56,736 nucleotides of DNA, taken from assembly GCA_018267055.1 (NCBI GenBank), contig JAFDZF010000136.1, positions 1 through 56,736 of the forward strand, read 5' to 3'. The notes under the pieces are model-generated. The model worked only from the letters and a program-made list of their open reading frames with translations. It was not told the DNA's origin and searched no databases. Both the position numbers and the translations under genes were made by a program. The stretch comes from Bacteroidota bacterium (GTDB lineage Bacteria > Bacteroidota > Bacteroidia > Flavobacteriales_F > PHOS-HE28). Below, in pieces: positions 39,559 to 48,812 of the stretch (positions within the stretch are counted from its first letter, which is position 1; the number at the start of each line of letters is the position of its first letter).

Positions 39559-40488
39559 ATGGACATCCGCATCGCGCAGCTGACGAAGCGCTACGGCACG
39601 CAGACCGCCGTGGACGACGTGAGCTTCGCCGTGAGCGCGGGCGAGGTGCTCGGCTTCCTGGGCCCCAATGGCGCGGGCAAGACCACCACGATGAAGATGG
39701 TGTGCGGCCTGGTGGCCCCCGATCACGGCCGCGTGCTCGTGGGCGGCACCGACGTGGCCGAGGACCCGGCGGCCGTGCGCCGCATGATCGGCTACCTGCC
39801 CGAGAGCAATCCGCTCTACGACGACATGCCCGTGCTGGACTTCCTGCGCTTCGCCGCGCGCCTCCAGGGCGTGGAGAAGGACCTGGTGGACCAGCGCCTC
39901 CGCGACATGGTGGAGGTCTGCGGCCTGGGCGACGAGAAGCACAAGCGCATCGGCGAGCTGAGCAAAGGCTACCGCCAGCGGACGGGCCTGGCCCAGGCCA
40001 TGGTGCACGATCCCCAGGTGCTCATCCTCGACGAGCCCACCACCGGCCTCGACCCGAACCAGATCGTCGAGATCCGCGCGCTCATCAAGGAGCTGGGCCA
40101 GGCGAAGACGGTGATCTTCAGCACGCACATCCTGCCCGAAGTGGAGGCCGTGTGCGACCGCATCCTCATCATCAACAAAGGCCGCATCGTGGCCGACGGC
40201 TCCCCCTCCACCCTGCGCGCCCAGGCGCACGGCGAGGCGGTGCTGCTCGCCGGCATCGAGGACGGTGCGCCCGATGACGTGCTGGCCGCCCTGCGCGCCC
40301 TGCCCGGCGTGACCGACATCACCCCGGTGCCCGGTGCCGAGGGCCGCTACGAGCTGCGCATGCGGACGGACGGCCCGCCCGGGCGCCCGGTCTTCGCGCT
40401 CTGCGTCCGGCGCGGCTGGACGCTGACCGAGCTGCGCACCGTGGAGACCCGGCTGGAGGATGTCTTCCGCGACCTCACCCTGAACTGA
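39559..40488 (+). CDS. gldA: GldA-type ABC transporter ATPase
   Basis: 309 residues. Walker A G-P-N-G-A-G-K-T at 35-42, signature L-S-K-G-Y-R-Q-R, Walker B V-L-I-L-D-E-P and switch F-S-T-H-I-L are intact, with the GldA-type accessory C-terminal region of about 80 residues. Followed by gldF, gldG and DUF4340 genes, the standard arrangement. GldAFG is linked to gliding and surface-protein traffic in flavobacteria, but its substrate is unproven; here it could simply support envelope processes. Confidence 0.9.
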   Translation: MDIRIAQLTKRYGTQTAVDDVSFAVSAGEVLGFLGPNGAGKTTTMKMVCGLVAPDHGRVLVGGTDVAEDPAAVRRMIGYLPESNPLYDDMPVLDFLRFAARLQGVEKDLVDQRLRDMVEVCGLGDEKHKRIGELSKGYRQRTGLAQAMVHDPQVLILDEPTTGLDPNQIVEIRALIKELGQAKTVIFSTHILPEVEAVCDRILIINKGRIVADGSPSTLRAQAHGEAVLLAGIEDGAPDDVLAALRALPGVTDITPVPGAEGRYELRMRTDGPPGRPVFALCVRRGWTLTELRTVETRLEDVFRDLTLN

Positions 40489-40501
40489 CCGGCGAAGGCC
40501 C

Positions 40502-41230
40502 ATGCGCAGCATCGTCCTCATCGCCCGCAAGGAGCTCGCCTCCTTCTTCGACTCGCTGATGGCCTACCTCATCCTGGCCACCTTCCTCGGCGTCAGCGGC
40601 TTCTTCACCTGGTGGTTCGGCACCGACGTGTTCCTCCGCGGCATCGCCGACCTGAGCACCTTCTTCAGCGTGGCCTACTGGACGCTCTTCTTCTTCCTGC
40701 CCGCGCTCACCATGCGCACCCTGGCCGAGGAGCGCCGCACCGGCACGCTGGACCTGCTGCTCACCAAGGCGGTCACCGAGCGGCAGGTGGTGGTGGCGAA
40801 GTTCCTCGCCTGCCTCGCCCTCATCGCCCTGGCGCTGCTGTGCACGCTGCCCTATTACCTCACGGTGGCCGCCATCGGCCCGGTGGACCATGGCGCCGTG
40901 CTCTGCGGCTACCTGGCGCTGCTGTGCATGAGCGCCGCCTACATCGCCCTGGGCATCCTGGCGAGCAGCCTCACCAGCAACCAGATCGTGGCCTTCGTGG
41001 GCGGGCTGGCCCTGATCGCCCTGTTCCACCTGGTGTTCTCCGTGGTGGCGGCCAGCTCCACCGGGCTGCTCGGCGAGACGCTGCAGTTCCTCAGCACCGA
41101 GGCGCACTTCGACAGCATGAGCCGCGGCGTGCTGGACAGCCGCGACGTGGTCTATTTCGCCAGCCTCTGCGTGGGCGGGCTCGCCCTGGCGGCGATGACC
41201 CTGGCCCGCCGCATCCACCAGGGACGATGA
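40502..41230 (+). CDS. gldF: GldF-type ABC permease
   Basis: 242 residues with six membrane helices and the ABC2-type pattern: A-R-K-E-L-A-S-F-F, T-M-R-T-L-A-E-E-R-R-T-G-T-L-D-L-L-L-T-K-A-V and L-G-I-L-A-S-S-L-T-S-N-Q. It follows gldA by 13 bp and overlaps gldG by four bases (ATGA). Confidence 0.92.
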   Translation: MRSIVLIARKELASFFDSLMAYLILATFLGVSGFFTWWFGTDVFLRGIADLSTFFSVAYWTLFFFLPALTMRTLAEERRTGTLDLLLTKAVTERQVVVAKFLACLALIALALLCTLPYYLTVAAIGPVDHGAVLCGYLALLCMSAAYIALGILASSLTSNQIVAFVGGLALIALFHLVFSVVAASSTGLLGETLQFLSTEAHFDSMSRGVLDSRDVVYFASLCVGGLALAAMTLARRIHQGR

Positions 41231-42744
41231 GCACACGGGCCGCCTTCCTCCGCAACGTGCTACTGCTCCTGGCGGCGCTGGTGCTCGTGAACCTGCTCGC
41301 ACAGCGCTTCCGCACCCGGATCGACCTCACCGGCGACGCCCGCTACACCCTGGCCCCGGCCACGCTGGACCTCCTGAAGAAGCTGCCCGAGACGGTGACG
41401 GTGACCGCCTACTTCACGGAGCGGATGCCGCCCGACCTGGCCCGCACGCGGCAGGACTTCCAGGACCTGCTGGTGGAGTACGCCGCGCGCTCCAACGGCC
41501 AAGTGGTGTTCGAGTTCATCGATCCCAACAGCGCGGACTCCATCGCCGCGAAGGCCCGCGCCGAGGGCGTGCGCCTGCTGATCTCCGAGACGCGGGAGAA
41601 GGACAAGCGCGAGAACCTGAAGGTGTACATGGGCGCCGTGGTGCGCATGGGCGACCGCAAGGCCGTGATCCCGGCGGTGCCGCAGGAAGGCGCGCTGGAA
41701 TGGGTGCTCTCCTCGGCCATCCAGCGGGCGAGCATCACGCGGAAGCCCGTCATCGGCGTGGTGCAGGGGCACCACGAACCGCCGGTGCAGATGCTCGACC
41801 AGCTGGTGGGCCAGCTGAACGAGCTCTACGACGTGGAGCCGATGGCGATCTACGACACCTTCCCCATCAACGCACGGTTCAACACGCTGCTGCTGATCGA
41901 CCCGAAGGACACCATCCCGCCCCTGCAGCTGCAGCGGCTCCTGGAGTTCATGGGCCGGGGCAACGGGCTGGTGCTCGCCTACGGCGCGGTGGACGTGGAC
42001 CTGAGCAGCTCGCCGGTGGCCGACCTCCGCCGCACGGACCTGGAGCCCTGGCTGCGGCAGCTGGGGGTGCGCATCGAGCCGCGCATCGTGGCCGACGCCA
42101 AGTGCGGGCAGGTGCAGGTGATGCAGAGCGGGCTGCCCTTCCCCGTGCCGGTGGCCTTCCCCTACTTCCCGCTGATCGACCACTTCGGCGACCATCCCGT
42201 GGCCAGCGGCCTCGACCTCGCGATGTTCCAGTTCGCCGCCCCCCTGGCCTTCGTCGGCGATACGAGCATCCGGTACGCCCCCCTGCTGATGAGCAGCGGC
42301 AAGAGCGCCCTGCTGGCCCCGCCGGCCGTGGTGGACATCCGCAAGGCCTGGAGCGATGCGGACTTCCCCGACGGGCCGCAGGTGCTGGGGGCCGCGCTGG
42401 AAGGCACCTTCGCCCCGCCGCAGCGCTCGCGCGCGGTGGTCTTCACCAACGGCACCTTCTGCAACAGCTTCGCCAACGGCCAGCCGGTGCAGCTTCCCCA
42501 AGGCAACGTGGACCTGATGGTGAACGCGGTGGACTGGGTGTCGCACAACACCGGCCTGCTCGAGCTGCGCGGCAAGGAGGTGAGCTACCGGCCCATCGCG
42601 GACGTGGGCGATGCGCGGCGGGCATTGCTGAAATGGATGAACCTGCTGCTGCCGGTCGCCCTCGTGATCGGCTACGGCCTGCTGCGCGCCCAGTGGCGCC
42701 GGCGACAACGCATGCGCCGCATGCGCCCCGGCCATGTCCGGTAA
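41227..42744 (+). CDS. gldG: GldG-type substrate-binding-like membrane protein
   Basis: 505 residues. An N-terminal helix is followed by a long extracytoplasmic domain (I-D-L-T-G-D-A-R-Y-T-L; V-I-G-V-V-Q-G-H-H-E-P-P) and a single C-terminal helix (L-L-P-V-A-L-V-I-G-Y-G-L-L) with a basic tail. This fits the GldG/ABC_transp_aux family. Start ATG 41227 overlaps gldF by four bases. Confidence 0.92.
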   Translation: MSTRAAFLRNVLLLLAALVLVNLLAQRFRTRIDLTGDARYTLAPATLDLLKKLPETVTVTAYFTERMPPDLARTRQDFQDLLVEYAARSNGQVVFEFIDPNSADSIAAKARAEGVRLLISETREKDKRENLKVYMGAVVRMGDRKAVIPAVPQEGALEWVLSSAIQRASITRKPVIGVVQGHHEPPVQMLDQLVGQLNELYDVEPMAIYDTFPINARFNTLLLIDPKDTIPPLQLQRLLEFMGRGNGLVLAYGAVDVDLSSSPVADLRRTDLEPWLRQLGVRIEPRIVADAKCGQVQVMQSGLPFPVPVAFPYFPLIDHFGDHPVASGLDLAMFQFAAPLAFVGDTSIRYAPLLMSSGKSALLAPPAVVDIRKAWSDADFPDGPQVLGAALEGTFAPPQRSRAVVFTNGTFCNSFANGQPVQLPQGNVDLMVNAVDWVSHNTGLLELRGKEVSYRPIADVGDARRALLKWMNLLLPVALVIGYGLLRAQWRRRQRMRRMRPGHVR

Positions 42745-43699
42745 GGCGCGCACCTGGTGGGCCGTGGCGGGCGTGGCCGTGCTCGCGGGGATCTGGTGGG
42801 CCAGCGGCGGCCTCTCGCCCCGGACGCAGCAACGCACTTTCCGCGAGCGGATCATGCGCGTGGACACCGGCGCGCTCTCGTCCTTCCTCATCCGCCCCGC
42901 CCCACGGCGCGGGCACCCCGAGATGCGCTTCGAGCGCGACGGCGGGCACTGGACCCTCCGGAGCGCCGGCTTCCACACCCCCGCCGACCAACGCCGGATG
43001 GACGAGCTGCTCGCCCTGATCAGCGACGTGCGCACCCTCCGCGTGATCGGGCGGCTCACCGATGTGAAGGCCGCCTATGGCCTGACCGACAGCACCGCCG
43101 ACCACCTGGTGCTGGACACGCCCGAAGGCCGCATGGACCTGGCGGTGGGCGTGATGAGCAGCGGCGACGAGCCCGCCACCGCCGTACATGCCTCCGGTGA
43201 CGAGGCGGTGTACGCCGTGCCCGGCATGCTGGGCCTCTACACCAGCCGGTCCTACATCGATTGGATCCCCAAGCCCATGGTCAACGGCGACCCCGCGCGC
43301 TGGAAGCGGGTCACCTTCGTGTTCCCCAACGACCAGGGCTACAGCCTGGAACGCCACGGCGCGGCCTGGACCCTCAACGGCCTGCCGACCGACAGCCTCA
43401 AGGTGGCGCGTTACCTGCGCAACCTCTCGCGCTACAGCGGTTCCGCCCTCACGGACCCGGCGGACACGCTGAAGGCGGTGCTGGTGTACAACCTCGTGGT
43501 GGAGGACAGCACGCGCGCGGCCCCGATCATGCTCCGCATCTTCCAGGCCGGCGATCGCCTGATCGCCCGCAGCACCCTGGCACCGCCGGAGATCGTGATG
43601 CCCTTCGACCCGCAGGTGGAGATCCCCCGCCTCTTCCGCCCGCCGTCCGCGTTCCTGCCCGACGGCCAGCCGCCCGTGATGCCGGCTGTCAACAGGTGA
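42734..43699 (+). CDS. DUF4340 membrane-anchored protein
   Basis: 321 residues. One N-terminal helix (W-W-A-V-A-G-V-A-V-L-A-G-I-W-W-A) and a periplasmic region made of DUF4340 beta-alpha repeats (G-L-T-D-S-T-A-D-H-L-V, Y-A-V-P-G-M, F-V-F-P-N-D-Q-G-Y-S-L). DUF4340 proteins commonly follow GldG-type genes and are thought to act with that transporter. It overlaps the gldG stop by 11 bases. Confidence 0.9.
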   Translation: MSGKARTWWAVAGVAVLAGIWWASGGLSPRTQQRTFRERIMRVDTGALSSFLIRPAPRRGHPEMRFERDGGHWTLRSAGFHTPADQRRMDELLALISDVRTLRVIGRLTDVKAAYGLTDSTADHLVLDTPEGRMDLAVGVMSSGDEPATAVHASGDEAVYAVPGMLGLYTSRSYIDWIPKPMVNGDPARWKRVTFVFPNDQGYSLERHGAAWTLNGLPTDSLKVARYLRNLSRYSGSALTDPADTLKAVLVYNLVVEDSTRAAPIMLRIFQAGDRLIARSTLAPPEIVMPFDPQVEIPRLFRPPSAFLPDGQPPVMPAVNR

Positions 43700-43760: not shown

Positions 43761-44477
43761 GTGTCCCTGCACACCATCCGCATCGAGGCCCAGCCCGACG
43801 ACGACACCTGCGGCCCCACCGCCCTGCACGCCGTGTACGACCACTTCGGCGAGGACCTGTCGTTGCAGCGGGTCATCCAGGAAGTGCACCACCTGGAGGA
43901 CGGCGGCACCCTGGCCGTGTTCCTTGGGCTGCACGCCCTGAAGCAGGGTTACCACGCGCGGATCCACAGCTACAACCTGCGCGTCTTCGACCCCACCTGG
44001 GACACCCTGCCGCCGGACCTGCTGCGCAAGAAGCTGATCGCCCAGACCCGCTTGAAGGAGGGCAAGAAGCTGCACGCTGCCTGCCTCGCCTACTCGCGCT
44101 TCCTGAAGATGGGCGGCGAGCTGCGCTTCGACGATCCCACCCCCGCCCTGCTGCAGCGCTACTTCGACGCCGACCTGCCCGTGCTCGCCGGGCTCAGCGC
44201 CACCTACCTCTACAAGAGCAAGCGGGAGCTCACCGGCAGCAACGGCCAGAGCGTCCTGGACGACCTGCGCGGCAAGCCCATGGGCCACTTCGTGGTGCTC
44301 TGCGGCATGGAGGGCAAGCAGGTGCGCGTGGCCGACCCCTACCAGGACAATCCGCTCAGCGAGGGCCGTTTCTACAACGTGCACATCGGCCGCCTGATCA
44401 ACAGCATCCTCCTCGGCATCGTCACCTACGACGCCAACCTGCTCATCCTCTCCCCCCGGGAACTGCCGCAGCCATGA
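43761..44477 (+). CDS. C39-like papain-fold peptidase of the amidoligase operon
   Basis: 238 residues starting with GTG. Catalytic residues fit a C39-type fold: C17 in D-D-D-T-C-G-P-T-A-L, H186 in M-G-H-F-V-V-L and D202 in V-A-D-P-Y. No signal peptide, ABC or membrane segment, so it is cytoplasmic and not a bacteriocin exporter. It opens the operon with two amidoligases and a formylglutamate-type hydrolase. It may cut or mature an amide-linked peptide made by them. A 100-bp gap separates it from the ligase. Confidence 0.88.
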   Translation: MSLHTIRIEAQPDDDTCGPTALHAVYDHFGEDLSLQRVIQEVHHLEDGGTLAVFLGLHALKQGYHARIHSYNLRVFDPTWDTLPPDLLRKKLIAQTRLKEGKKLHAACLAYSRFLKMGGELRFDDPTPALLQRYFDADLPVLAGLSATYLYKSKRELTGSNGQSVLDDLRGKPMGHFVVLCGMEGKQVRVADPYQDNPLSEGRFYNVHIGRLINSILLGIVTYDANLLILSPRELPQP

Positions 44478-44577
44478 ACCGAACTTCGTTCCCCGTTGTC
44501 CATCATCCGTCGCCGGGCCATGCGTGCGGCGCACGTGGACAGCGGACAACGAACGACCAACGACCGACAACGAAGCG

Positions 44578-46083
44578 ATGAAGAAGATCATCGTGGTGCG
44601 CGACCCCAAGGAGTTCAACCTCGGCTTGAAGGGCGTGGAGGTGGTGTCCAGCAAGGACTACCTCACCGACCCGCGCTTCGCCCAGCTCACCCACACACGC
44701 ATCTTCAACCTGTCGCGCAGCTATGCCTACCAGAGCCGCGGCTACTACGTGAGCCTGCTCGCCGAGGCCCGCGGGCAGAAGGTGATCCCCAGCGCCAAGA
44801 CCCTCCTCGACCTGAAGAACCCCAGCCTGGTGAAGGTGCTGGGGCGTGACCTGGACGAAGTGGTGCAGCAGAGCCTGGGCGAGAAGAACAAGCACGAGTT
44901 CATCTTCAGCGTGTACTTCGGCCGTAATGTGAACCGCAAGTACGACAAGCTGGCGCACGAGCTCTACAAGGCCTTCCAGGCGCCGCTGATCCGGGCCCGG
45001 TTCGTGAAGGGCGAGAAGTGGGAGCTCCGTTCGGTGCGGGCCATCCCCTACAACGACATCCCCGAGGAGCACCTGCCCTTCCTGAAGAAGTACGCCGCGG
45101 ACTATTTCGCCAAGAAGCGCTACGACAAGGCGCGGGAGGACCGCAGCGCCTACGACCTGGCCATCCTGGTGAACCCGGCGGACAAGGCGGCCCCCTCGAA
45201 CAAGCGCGCCATCGTGAAGTTCCGCCAGGCCGCGGAGGACCTGGGCTTCGCCGTGGACATCATCGGCCCGGACGACATCGACCGCATCGGCGAGTACGAC
45301 GCGCTGTTCATCCGCGAGAACACGCACGTGAACGACCACACCTACCGCATCTCGCGCAAGGCGCAGCAGGAAGGGCTGGCCGTGATGGACGCCCCCGATG
45401 CGATCCTGAAGTGCAACAACAAGGTGTACCTCGCCGAGGTGATGGAGGCGCACGGCATCCCCACGCCCCGCACGATGATCGTGCACAGCGAGAACCGCGA
45501 CGAGGTGGCCAAGCGCTTCGGCCTGCCGGTGGTGCTGAAACTGCCCGACAGCACCTTCAGCATCGGCGTGATGAAGGCCAAGACGCCCGAGGACCTGGAG
45601 CAGAAGCTGGACGACATCCTCCGCGAGAGCGACCTGGCGATCGCCCAGGAGTACATGCCCAGCGATTACGACTGGCGCATCGGCGTGCTCGACGGCGAGC
45701 CCCTCTATGCCTGCAAGTACTTCATGGCGCGGGGCCACTGGCAGATCTACAACTGGGACAGCGGCACCAAGAAGGACGAGAGCGGCGACTTCGCCACGAT
45801 GCACGTGCACGAGTGCGCCCGGCCCATCATCGATGTGGCGGTGAAGGCCGTGCACGCCATGGTGGGCACCGAGGGCCTCTTCGGCGTGGACGTGAAGGAA
45901 GTGGACGGCAAGCCCTACGTGATCGAGGTGAACGAGTGCCCCAACATCGACCACGGCGTGGAGGACCTGGCCCTGGGCGACGCCATCTACCGCCGCATCA
46001 TCGGGTCCCTGAAGAACGGCATCGAACGCCGGATCGGCATACGAACATCCGCGCCCGCCGCAGGCGGCACGCACGCACAATGA
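44578..46083 (+). CDS. RimK-like ATP-grasp ligase with N-terminal RLAN domain
   Basis: 501 residues. Residues about 1-210 match the RimK-like N-terminal (RLAN) domain. The ATP-grasp domain covers about 290-480, with L-K-L-P-D-S-T-F-S-I-G-V, A-Q-E-Y-M-P-S-D-Y-D-W-R-I-G-V and the metal-binding V-I-E-V-N-E-C-P-N-I-D. It should join a carboxylate to an amine through an acyl phosphate. Start ATG 44578 is preceded by an A/C-rich leader with repeated ACGACCA-like words, so an upstream ATG at 44524 is unlikely. Its stop overlaps the GCS2 start. Confidence 0.92.
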   Translation: MKKIIVVRDPKEFNLGLKGVEVVSSKDYLTDPRFAQLTHTRIFNLSRSYAYQSRGYYVSLLAEARGQKVIPSAKTLLDLKNPSLVKVLGRDLDEVVQQSLGEKNKHEFIFSVYFGRNVNRKYDKLAHELYKAFQAPLIRARFVKGEKWELRSVRAIPYNDIPEEHLPFLKKYAADYFAKKRYDKAREDRSAYDLAILVNPADKAAPSNKRAIVKFRQAAEDLGFAVDIIGPDDIDRIGEYDALFIRENTHVNDHTYRISRKAQQEGLAVMDAPDAILKCNNKVYLAEVMEAHGIPTPRTMIVHSENRDEVAKRFGLPVVLKLPDSTFSIGVMKAKTPEDLEQKLDDILRESDLAIAQEYMPSDYDWRIGVLDGEPLYACKYFMARGHWQIYNWDSGTKKDESGDFATMHVHECARPIIDVAVKAVHAMVGTEGLFGVDVKEVDGKPYVIEVNECPNIDHGVEDLALGDAIYRRIIGSLKNGIERRIGIRTSAPAAGGTHAQ

Positions 46084-47312
46084 GCACCCGCAAAGCCTTC
46101 AGCCTCTTCGAGGTCACCGGCATCGAGCTGGAATACATGGTGGTGGACCGCGACACGCTGCGCGCCAGCCCCACGGTGGACGAGCTGTTCAAGGACGTCA
46201 CCGGCGCCATCGTCAGCGACGTGGAACGCGGCGACGTGGAATGGAGCAACGAGCTGGTGAGCCACGTGGTGGAGCTGAAGACGGCGAGGCCCGCCGAGCA
46301 CATCGCCGCGTTCGAGCGGAAGTTCGCCGACGAGGTGCGGGCGATCAACGCCGCGCTGGCGAAACGCGGCCGGATGCTCCTGCCCACGGCCGCCCATCCC
46401 TTCTTCGACCCCTTCACCGAGACGGTGATCTGGCCCCACGAGCACAATGAGGTGTACGCGCTGTACAACCGCATCTTCGACTGCCGCGGCCACGGCTGGA
46501 GCAACCTCCAGAGCACCCACCTCAACCTGCCCTTCGCCAACGACCAGGAGTTCGGCCGGCTGCACAGCGCCATCCGCATGGTGCTGCCGATCATCCCGGC
46601 GCTGAGCGCCAGCTCCCCCATCCTCGACGGGAAGCCCACCGGCCTGATGGACTCCCGCATGGAGGCCTACCTGCACCACCAGGAGCGGCTGCCCCAGCTC
46701 ATGGGATCGCTGATCCCCGAGGCCGTGTTCACCCAGGAGGACTACTACCGCACGGTGTTCGACCCCATCGGCCGCGCGCTGGCCCCCTTCGATACCGGGC
46801 ACGTGATGGACCACCACTTCGCCAATTCGCGCGGGGCCATCGCCCGCTTCGACCGCGGCGCCATCGAGATCCGCGTGGTGGACGTCCAGGAATGCCCGGG
46901 CGCCGACCTGGCCATCGCCGAGATGATCGTGGCCGCCCTGAAGGCCATGGTGGAGGGCCGCTGGGTGAGCAACTACCTGCAGCGCGCCTGGCACGAGAGC
47001 GACCTGCTCGCCCTCTTCAAGGACGTGATCAAGGATGCCGGGCAGGCCACCATCGCCAACAAGGACTTCCTCATCATGTTCGGGCTGATGCGGGAAAAGG
47101 CCACGGCCCAGGAGCTCTGGCAGCACCTCTTCACCGAGCTGCAGGACGAGCTGAGCCCCGGCGCACGGGAGCGCATCGCCCACATCCTCACCCACGGCTG
47201 CCTGGCCCGGCGCATCCTGAAGCACGCGGGCCCCGACCCGAGCGCGGCGTCCATCACCGCCGTCTATCGCGAGCTCGCCGCCTGCCTGAACGACGACCGC
47301 ATGCTGGCATGA
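46080..47312 (+). CDS. GCS2-like carboxylate-amine ligase
   Basis: 410 residues of the glutamate-cysteine ligase 2 (glutamine-synthetase-like) fold: G-I-E-L-E-Y-M near residue 16, E-L-V-S-H-V-V-E-L-K-T, H-P-F-F-D-P, S-T-H-L-N-L-P-F-A and I-E-I-R-V-V-D-V-Q-E-C-P. It could form a gamma-glutamyl or similar amide bond. True glutathione synthesis is doubtful because a bacillithiol gene is present and the partner is an RLAN-type RimK rather than GshB. ATGA overlaps link it to genes on both sides. Confidence 0.9.
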   Translation: MSTRKAFSLFEVTGIELEYMVVDRDTLRASPTVDELFKDVTGAIVSDVERGDVEWSNELVSHVVELKTARPAEHIAAFERKFADEVRAINAALAKRGRMLLPTAAHPFFDPFTETVIWPHEHNEVYALYNRIFDCRGHGWSNLQSTHLNLPFANDQEFGRLHSAIRMVLPIIPALSASSPILDGKPTGLMDSRMEAYLHHQERLPQLMGSLIPEAVFTQEDYYRTVFDPIGRALAPFDTGHVMDHHFANSRGAIARFDRGAIEIRVVDVQECPGADLAIAEMIVAALKAMVEGRWVSNYLQRAWHESDLLALFKDVIKDAGQATIANKDFLIMFGLMREKATAQELWQHLFTELQDELSPGARERIAHILTHGCLARRILKHAGPDPSAASITAVYRELAACLNDDRMLA

Positions 47313-47995
47313 CGCAGCGGCTCTTCCTCAGCTGCGAGCACGGCGGCAACGACGTGCCCGCCCCTTTCCGGCCGTTCTTCCGGGGCGCCGCCGCGGTCCT
47401 GGCCTCGCATCGCGGGCTCGACCTGGGCGCGCTGGACCTCTTCACCCACCTGCGGCCGCTGGCCGATGCCTCGTACAGCACCATCCTCTCGCGCCTCTGC
47501 ATCGAGATGAACCGCTCCGAAGGCCACCGGCAGCTCTTCTCCGTTTACACCAAGGCCCTGCCCCCACCGCTCAAGCAGGTGCTGCTGGCGCATTACCACG
47601 CGTACCGCGATCCGGTGATCGCCGACGTGTCCGCCTGCTTGCGCGCGAAGGAACAGGTGCTGCACCTGAGCGTGCATTCCTTCACCCCGGTGCTGGACGG
47701 CATCGAACGTCCCCTGGACATCGGCCTGCTGTACGATCCCGCCCGGCCCGGTGAAAAAGCCTTCTGCGCGGCCTGGGACCGCGAGATCCGTCGGCGTGCA
47801 CCGGGCCTCCGCGTGCGCATGAACCGGCCCTACAAGGGGACCGCCGACGGCTTCACCACCGCCCTGCGCCAGCGGTTCCCCAAGGGCTATGCGGGCATCG
47901 AGCTGGAAGTGAACCAGCGGTTCGCCGCCAAAGGCCGCATGCACGCGGACATCAAGGCCGTGCTGTCGGCGTCGCTACAGGCAGCGCTGGGGTAA
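47309..47995 (+). CDS. N-formylglutamate amidohydrolase-like hydrolase
   Basis: 228 residues. FGase motifs are present: L-S-C-E-H-G-G-N-D-V-P, S-R-L-C-I-E-M-N-R-S, L-S-V-H-S-F-T-P and G-I-E-L-E-V-N-Q-R. It is shorter than histidine-pathway enzymes and no hut genes are near. It probably hydrolyses an N-acyl or amide bond on the product of the upstream ligases. Starts inside the GCS2 stop (ATGA at 47309). Confidence 0.9.
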   Translation: MTQRLFLSCEHGGNDVPAPFRPFFRGAAAVLASHRGLDLGALDLFTHLRPLADASYSTILSRLCIEMNRSEGHRQLFSVYTKALPPPLKQVLLAHYHAYRDPVIADVSACLRAKEQVLHLSVHSFTPVLDGIERPLDIGLLYDPARPGEKAFCAAWDREIRRRAPGLRVRMNRPYKGTADGFTTALRQRFPKGYAGIELEVNQRFAAKGRMHADIKAVLSASLQAALG

Positions 47996-48050: not shown

Positions 48051-48812
48051 TCACAGGTCCACCACCAGCCCATCATAGGCGAGCTGCACGTTCGGCGGGA
48101 GCTCCACCTCCGCGTGCAGGCCCATCCAATGGCTGATGTGGGTGAAGTAGGCGCGCGTGGGTCGCAGCTCCTCCACCAGCGCCAGCGCTTCGTCCAGGTT
48201 GAGGTGGGCGATGTGCTCCTTGCGGCGCAGCGCGTTCAGCACCAGCACCTCGCTGCCCCGGATCTTCTCCCGCTCGGCCGGCGGGATGGTCTTGGCGTCG
48301 GTGATGTAGGTGAGGCCGCCGATGCGGAACCCGCGCACGGGCAGGTGCAGGTGCCGAACTTCCACGGGCGTGACCGATACCGGTCCCACGTGGAACGACG
48401 ACCGCTCGATGGTGTGCAGCGCGAACTCGGGGATGCCGGGATACCGGTGCTCGGCGAAGGCGTATTCATACACCCGGCGCACGGCCTGCAGCGTGGGCGC
48501 GTCGGCGTAGATGTCCACCGACTTCGGCGGCTCGTGGGCGAAGCTGATGGCGCGCAGGTCGTCCATGCCCGCGATATGGTCCATGTGCTCGTGGGTGAGC
48601 AGCACGGCGTCCAGGTCGTCCACCCCGGCGCGCAGGAGCTGTTGCCGCAGGTCCGGCCCGGCATCGATGAGCAAGCGGTGGCCGTCGACCTCCACCAGCG
48701 CCGACGAGCGCAAACGCTTGTCCCGCGGGTCATCGCTGCTGCAGACGACGCAGCGGCAGCCGATGACGGGAACGCCCTGGCTGGTGCCCGTGCCGAGGAA
48801 GGTGAGGCGCAT
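48051..48812 (-). CDS. MBL-fold metal-dependent hydrolase (PhnP-like)
   Basis: 253 residues. Metal motif T-H-E-H-M-D-H at 73-79, early G-T-G-T-S-Q-G-V-P with a C-R-C-x-x-C zinc-type cluster, and a late T-H-I-S-H histidine. These fit PhnP-like phosphodiesterases or related MBL hydrolases. Exact substrate is unknown; no phn genes are near. Convergent with the amidoligase operon across 55 bp, and 51 bp downstream of the TPR gene. Confidence 0.92.
   Translation of the reverse strand: MRLTFLGTGTSQGVPVIGCRCVVCSSDDPRDKRLRSSALVEVDGHRLLIDAGPDLRQQLLRAGVDDLDAVLLTHEHMDHIAGMDDLRAISFAHEPPKSVDIYADAPTLQAVRRVYEYAFAEHRYPGIPEFALHTIERSSFHVGPVSVTPVEVRHLHLPVRGFRIGGLTYITDAKTIPPAEREKIRGSEVLVLNALRRKEHIAHLNLDEALALVEELRPTRAYFTHISHWMGLHAEVELPPNVQLAYDGLVVDL

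Follow-up and report, generated by a model that had tools for sequence, protein, structure and literature searches.

What do four closely packed genes in the window, the 56,736-nucleotide stretch of contig JAFDZF010000136.1 from a Bacteroidota bacterium analysed here, make together? They encode a C39-like papain-fold enzyme, an RLAN-ATP-grasp ligase, a divergent GCS2 ligase and an FGase-type amidohydrolase (Table 1). We propose, at a probability of roughly 45%, that this operon by itself encodes the cytosolic synthesis and recycling of a short peptide, made without ribosomes and capped by a gamma-glutamyl (or similar carboxyl) group. An earlier note on this DNA had named the four enzymes, with the last three joined by ATGA overlaps, and had seen no precursor peptide gene in the cluster. 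All four genes and both overlaps lie where that note placed them, each protein has a domain above its Pfam cut-off, and the lack of a precursor gene is borne out by the open reading frames of the cluster and by the tight gaps in relatives.

To ask how regularly these genes travel together, we drew loci by the RLAN domain only. RLAN was found in 35 of 296 Bacteroidota genomes searched, and 30 loci were fetched, a set that does not include four GNAT-sized Bacteroidota RLAN matches (some Pseudomonadota matches were likewise not among the fetched loci of the sample described below). GCS2 is present at 23 of the 30 loci, and of these 21 have C39 and 15 have FGase, in the order seen in the window, while any other neighbour family is common to at most 5 of the 30. 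In the clustering of neighbour families itself, the three partners are counted at 23, 20 and 15 of the loci. Since the partner families are this frequent in a sample drawn by RLAN alone and other families are not, the co-occurrence of the four gene families is far beyond chance. We additionally scanned 84,980 species genomes with an RLAN alignment and kept the best 80 loci of a longer list, a selection that over-represents operon-type RLAN and includes some loci near contig ends. These loci come from Bacteroidota, Fibrobacterota, Ignavibacteriota, Balneolota, Planctomycetota, Pseudomonadota, Thermodesulfobacteriota, Spirochaetota, Omnitrophota, Acidobacteriota, Nitrospirota and other phyla. 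All four genes are present at 30 of them, RLAN-GCS2-FGase without C39 at 27, C39-RLAN-GCS2 at 14 and RLAN-GCS2 only at 5. The genes are tightly spaced, with gaps of no more than 20 base pairs (bp) in 78 of 84 RLAN-GCS2 pairs, 47 of 50 C39-RLAN pairs and 61 of 64 GCS2-FGase pairs. Pairwise distances of the four proteins correlate (r 0.59–0.88, with none of 500 permutations as high), a supportive result only, as the rows include related proteins and two duplicate loci. The earlier note held that poor conservation would speak against its proposal; the set is instead conserved across many phyla. Clustering the neighbours over the 30 and the 80 loci for a hidden fifth partner returned no shared family beyond syntenic relatives. 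Because the other neighbours are not conserved, the operon includes neither a transporter nor a regulator, precursor or constant target gene.

Within this set the genes are not equally constant. RLAN-GCS2 is a nearly constant core, which C39 upstream and FGase downstream usually accompany, each being lost in places. In Flavobacteriaceae the operon is RLAN-GCS2-FGase with no neighbouring C39, and in two members of the family (99–100% complete) a C39 homologue is absent genome-wide. From this pattern of conservation and loss we therefore infer that RLAN and GCS2 perform the synthetic step and that C39 and FGase serve in processing or recycling. In the genus of the window, 16 of 18 genomes have RLAN; it is absent from G711 (100% complete) and G712 (99%, a single contig), and these two congeners offer natural comparisons with and without the operon. 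Identities to the window proteins within the genus are mostly 70–82% for C39, RLAN and GCS2 (57–66% in one divergent member) and 47–58% for FGase, which is missing in some genomes; the flanking DUF4340 protein shows 29–50%. Two loci are unusual. A contig labelled Candidatus Uhrbacteria (L083) has RLAN-GCS2, with an RLAN that groups with that of Imperialibacter (support 99), indicating a binning error or a transfer. A metagenome-assembled genome of Lysobacteraceae (L126) has C39-RLAN and FGase, but in the interval GCS2 is not detectable, perhaps because the operon has decayed.

The ligase at the centre of the operon matches the RLAN domain (PF14401) at 155.3 bits against a cut-off of 25 (E 1.2e-45) and the RimK domain at 36.6 bits against 21. 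Its ATP/Mg residues K282, K321, D438, E450 and N452 are invariant in 94 of 94 copies, gaps aside here as in the counts for the other proteins. In fold searches with its AlphaFold2 (AF2) model (predicted local distance difference test, pLDDT, 85.3), all matches come from the ATP-grasp domain and refer to that domain alone: LysX is best (Z 27.7, 2.2 Å, 265 residues), followed by ArgX (27.5) and RimK (26.5), with weaker scores for D-Ala-D-Ala ligases (about 23) and glutathione synthetase (22.2). As a likeness of a predicted model, this does not fix the substrate. The protein also falls below the family cut-offs for RimK (TIGR00768, 67.9 against 143.4) and LysX (TIGR02144, 60.7 against 275.6), and far under the NCBIfam cut-off for glutathione synthase.

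The C39-like protein scores 26.9 bits against Peptidase_C39 (PF03412, cut-off 22) and 27 against Peptidase_C39_2 (PF13529, cut-off 24), with no NCBIfam match. Its triad C17-H176-D192 is invariant in 54–56 copies, and the oxyanion residue is Q11. The earlier note had called this a cytoplasmic papain-fold peptidase; the fold and triad agree with our computations, and a cytosolic location is likely because the catalytic cysteine is residue 17, leaving no room for a cleavable signal peptide. The AF2 model (pLDDT 91.7) matches C39 peptidase domains (PCAT1, Z 18.4), the pseudomurein endoisopeptidase PeiR (17.8) and the phytochelatin synthase Alr0975 with its glutathione acyl-enzyme (17.5, over 157 residues at 13% identity), and these three are effectively tied. 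The phytochelatin synthase family PF05023 is not among the Pfam matches of the protein, so that this likeness is one of fold only.

Both remaining enzymes belong clearly to their Pfam families and fit no named NCBIfam subgroup that we compared. GCS2 (PF04107) is matched at 94.8 bits against a cut-off of 21 (E 7.6e-27), with E16, E18 and E58 invariant in 92 copies; the protein is far below every NCBIfam cut-off for glutamate-cysteine ligase or YbdK (at best 56.7 bits against 176.4), and it is the sole GCS2 match in the window genome. FGase (PF05013) is matched at 61.2 bits against 28.9 (E 2.1e-16), with 2odf (Atu2144) as the closest solved relative (5.7e-35). The candidate metal-site residues E10, H11, H119 and H123 are invariant in 70 of 70 copies, and no NCBIfam model matches, the HutG N-formylglutamate deformylase included.

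RLAN also occurs in a second setting. Other Bacteroidota have RLAN proteins of about 660 amino acids that combine all three domains in a GNAT-RLAN-ATP-grasp fusion, and the operon partners are missing there; in one genome, RLAN adjoins a fusion of GNAT with the papain-like DUF3335. Among Pseudomonadota, 72 of 398 genomes searched have RLAN, and the 60 loci comprise 58 with GNAT (mostly GNAT-DUF3335), one C39-RLAN-GCS2-FGase, one with neither and none with both. When the Bacteroidota and Pseudomonadota samples are combined, both selected by the RLAN domain and nothing else, the 90 loci divide into 65 with GNAT only, 24 with GCS2 only, one with neither and none with both; the comparison rests on these loci and not on the best-80 scan. 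In the best-80 scan, GNAT-like open reading frames lie within 4.5 kb of two GCS2 loci (L109 and L115); these are weak partial matches outside the operon, and we treat them as unrelated. A tree of 141 RLAN proteins (one row, L031, left out) separates the GNAT type from the GCS2 type as two large groups, except that another clade of GNAT fusions sits within the GCS2 group; a minimum of two changes between GNAT and GCS2 follows from the branches with good support. The operon C39 and DUF3335 are, by profile comparison, homologous (hhalign probability 96.9%, E 1.7e-10, with the cysteine and histidine aligned). The simplest reading is that the GNATs beside RLAN, which are RimI-like, and GCS2 are equivalent, each forming an amide on an amine as alternative caps, and that both kinds of RLAN system have in common a ligase and, usually, a papain-fold partner. 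This is a good hypothesis and not proof, because the exclusion involves few independent events. In its broadest form, which is possible but which we hold only tentatively, RLAN-ATP-grasp would mark one widespread pathway with two interchangeable caps, N-acetyl from GNAT or N-gamma-glutamyl from GCS2, usually with a homologous papain-fold partner, and the pathway would yield a bacterial product of a new class, either a short peptide with a cap or a modification of protein ends. It is just as tentatively that we would assign GNAT in that scheme to most RLAN-bearing Pseudomonadota, and GCS2 to Bacteroidota and many other phyla.

Several further genes were seen around GNAT-type RLAN in Pseudomonadota. 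DUF2817 lies near RLAN, mostly convergently, at some loci (L193, L195, L197, L199–L202, L205, L209, L212, L220 and L225), and a DUF155 gene is also often near. The operon FGase was compared with DUF2817 as a possible relative, for which profile comparison gave only 2.2% probability, and we make no claim of relationship. Three Pseudomonadota genomes (G363, G367 and G451) have two RLAN genes each; every other RLAN genome sampled has one.

In the pathway we propose for the operon, GCS2 would, judging by the chemistry of its family, use ATP to activate the side-chain carboxyl of glutamate and then couple it to an amine on a small acceptor. The RLAN-ATP-grasp ligase would convert a carboxyl of that product to an acyl phosphate and add a further amino acid, probably a glutamate-like one because the closest folds are LysX, ArgX and RimK; the two steps could come in either order. 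Through an acyl-cysteine intermediate, the C39-like enzyme might cleave or transfer the peptide, as C39 or phytochelatin-synthase-type enzymes do, and FGase would hydrolyse the acyl-glutamate amide and return the building blocks. In the sister systems, a RimI-like GNAT in place of GCS2 would give N-acetylation instead of gamma-glutamylation. The earlier note, which predicted synthesis of an acidic peptide or protein tag with matching trimming or recycling enzymes, thus stands in part: two ligases and two amide-cutting enzymes do share one conserved, precursor-free operon, as would suit a short peptide-like product that is made and recycled, but C39 is not essential to the set. A number of points weigh against the pathway. 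None of the four proteins has a known substrate or product, and GCS2 enzymes can vary in the carboxyl and the amine that they use. The acceptors of LysX, ArgX and RimK are proteins, and this speaks for a protein target no less than for a small molecule. Whole lineages lack C39 or FGase, and therefore the cleavage or transfer step and the amide hydrolysis step are not both obligatory. Finally, the exclusion between GNAT and GCS2 rests on few evolutionary events (the two forced changes) and not on 90 independent ones.

The main rival, which we consider unlikely though by a good way the strongest of the alternatives, is that the ligases extend one or more cellular proteins, at the terminus or on a side chain, with amino acids that C39 and FGase remove or trim, much as RimK and RimB do on ribosomal protein S6. 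The three closest folds of the ATP-grasp part do work on protein carboxyl ends, the GNATs that replace GCS2 resemble RimI, a family that acetylates protein N-termini, and the C39 model has an isopeptidase of papain fold, PeiR, among its best matches; RimK-RimB itself shows how a ligase and a trimming protease can work as a pair (PMC12239564). Yet the operon is linked to no gene for a dedicated target or tag, those relatives of GCS2 whose activity is known use free amino acids, and with an operon as patchy as this one, both across Bacteroidota and between congeners, the target would have to tolerate both states. A glutathione-like thiol is a more doubtful product. GCS2 would then make gamma-Glu-Cys or an analogue, the ATP-grasp enzyme would add a third residue, and C39 would act as a phytochelatin synthase, a scheme suggested by the pairing of GCS2 with ATP-grasp in glutathione synthesis and by the alignment of the C39 model with the Alr0975 acyl-enzyme. 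We disfavour it, on indirect evidence, because of the distribution of the bacillithiol gene BshC (in 291 of 296 Bacteroidota genomes, including 24 of 24 sampled with the operon), because a canonical GCS2 occurs separately in 13 of those 24 (at least 190 bits, against about 60–104 bits for the operon GCS2), and because glutathione synthetase is a poorer fold match than LysX; GNAT-type RLAN loci, moreover, have no adjoining GCS2.

Similarly improbable is that C39 is an acyl or peptide transferase of the BtrH or CtaG kind, with three bond-forming enzymes and one hydrolase producing a secondary metabolite. CtaG and AziU3 do appear in the Foldseek list of the C39 model, and BtrH lies near those of the C39 kind (PMC10318531), but the best matches are peptidases and phytochelatin synthase, the set is without an acyl carrier protein, transporter or resistance gene, and Flavobacteriaceae genomes without C39 keep the remaining operon. 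The two last possibilities we regard as very remote. Transfer of glutamate or aminoadipate onto the LysW carrier for lysine or arginine synthesis, the reaction of LysX and ArgX, would suit the best fold matches, but is largely refuted: LysW is absent from 11 of 12 operon genomes tested and also from the window genome, so that the operon there is not the LysX pathway, and the LysX model score is far below its cut-off, as given above. A graspetide-type cluster, a ribosomally synthesized and post-translationally modified peptide whose precursor the ATP-grasp ligase would cyclise and whose leader C39 would cut, is likewise disfavoured. An ATP-grasp ligase does adjoin a C39-type peptidase, but the precursor peptide is absent, with no precursor or conserved small open reading frame in any relative examined, C39 and RLAN abut or overlap in most relatives and so leave no room for one, and the set has no ABC transporter.

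Table 1. Genes of the operon and its immediate surroundings in the window
Feature	Coordinates	Strand	Details
C39-like (papain-fold, clan CA) cysteine peptidase or transferase	43761-44477	+	GTG start, 238 amino acids
C39-RLAN spacer	44478-44577		100 bp
RLAN-ATP-grasp ligase	44578-46083	+	501 amino acids; RLAN residues about 26-170, LysX/ArgX/RimK-like ATP-grasp about 190-486
Divergent GCS2 carboxylate-amine ligase	46080-47312	+	410 amino acids; ATGA overlap with RLAN stop at 46080
FGase-type amidohydrolase (N-formylglutamate amidohydrolase family)	47309-47995	+	228 amino acids; ATGA overlap with GCS2 stop at 47309
ABC-transporter ATPase, GldF-like permease, GldG-like protein and DUF4340 (GldA/GldF/GldG-like run)	39559-43699	+	directly upstream
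MBL-fold hydrolase	48051-48812	-	next downstream gene, convergent

The spacer between C39 and RLAN contains a low-complexity repeat, AACGACCAACGACC, at a position where most relatives have almost no spacer. The end of DUF4340 lies 61 bp before the start of C39, and this arrangement of the upstream run and C39 recurs within the genus (L244, L247, L249, L250 and L251).

Iyer et al. (2009) reportedly described RLAN/RimK neighbourhoods with GNAT fused to a papain-like domain (DUF3335), and the Pfam entry for RLAN presumably lists GCS2 among its neighbours. In our literature search, which did not cover Iyer et al. (2009), we found no paper describing the operon, its function or its product. That study is cited by PMC4431377 and PMC12239564, and the GNAT-DUF3335 fusion is mentioned in PMC10318531. 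The operon is best filed as a variant of these already described but uncharacterised RLAN neighbourhoods; that GNAT and GCS2 alternate is, to the extent that we could check, an observation added to these. If the proposed pathway is right, 24 of 296 sampled Bacteroidota species, about 8%, together with scattered members of many other phyla, make a product not yet identified. The operon is short and self-contained and is present in the cultivated genera Pontibacter, Polaribacter, Winogradskyella and Thiobacillus, and since close relatives with and without it exist, a metabolite or protein-mass comparison can decide directly. The alternation predicts a gamma-glutamyl-capped product in one group and an N-acetyl-capped product in the other.

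Compared with known systems, the operon shares parts with several. N-acetylglutaminylglutamine amide (NAGGN), an osmolyte, is synthesized with a GNAT-ATP-grasp fusion that makes an acylated dipeptide, and GNAT-RLAN-ATP-grasp fusions occur among the RLAN relatives here; the NAGGN pathway is not known to include RLAN or GCS2. The Peptidase C39 of bacteriocin exporters has the same fold and Cys-His-Asp triad as the window protein, but it works with an ABC exporter and a double-glycine leader, whereas the window protein is stand-alone and neither of these belongs to the conserved set. Glutathione synthesis (GCS2-type GshA with GshB) together with phytochelatin synthase also combines GCS2, an ATP-grasp ligase and a papain-fold enzyme; in the window, by contrast, GCS2 is a divergent branch, the ATP-grasp ligase is of the RimK/LysX type, and bacillithiol genes coexist. 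The LysW-dependent LysX/ArgX pathway supplies the closest fold for the ATP-grasp part, but has no RLAN and none of the three partners, and the window genome for its part lacks LysW. RimK-RimB of Pseudomonas (S6 polyglutamylation with a protease) likewise pairs a RimK-fold, glutamate-type ligase with a peptidase, RimB removing the glutamates that RimK adds to RpsF (PMC12239564). Unlike that pair, in which the protease is a retropepsin, the window operon has an extra RLAN domain, an extra GCS2 ligase, and enzymes of the cysteine and amidohydrolase types. Nearest of all are the GNAT-papain RLAN neighbourhoods, which have the RLAN-ATP-grasp family in common with the window and a homologous papain-like partner. 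There a GNAT is linked or fused, while none stands beside any of the 24 GCS2-type loci; the window instead has GCS2, usually FGase, a codirectional tight operon and a separate main clade.

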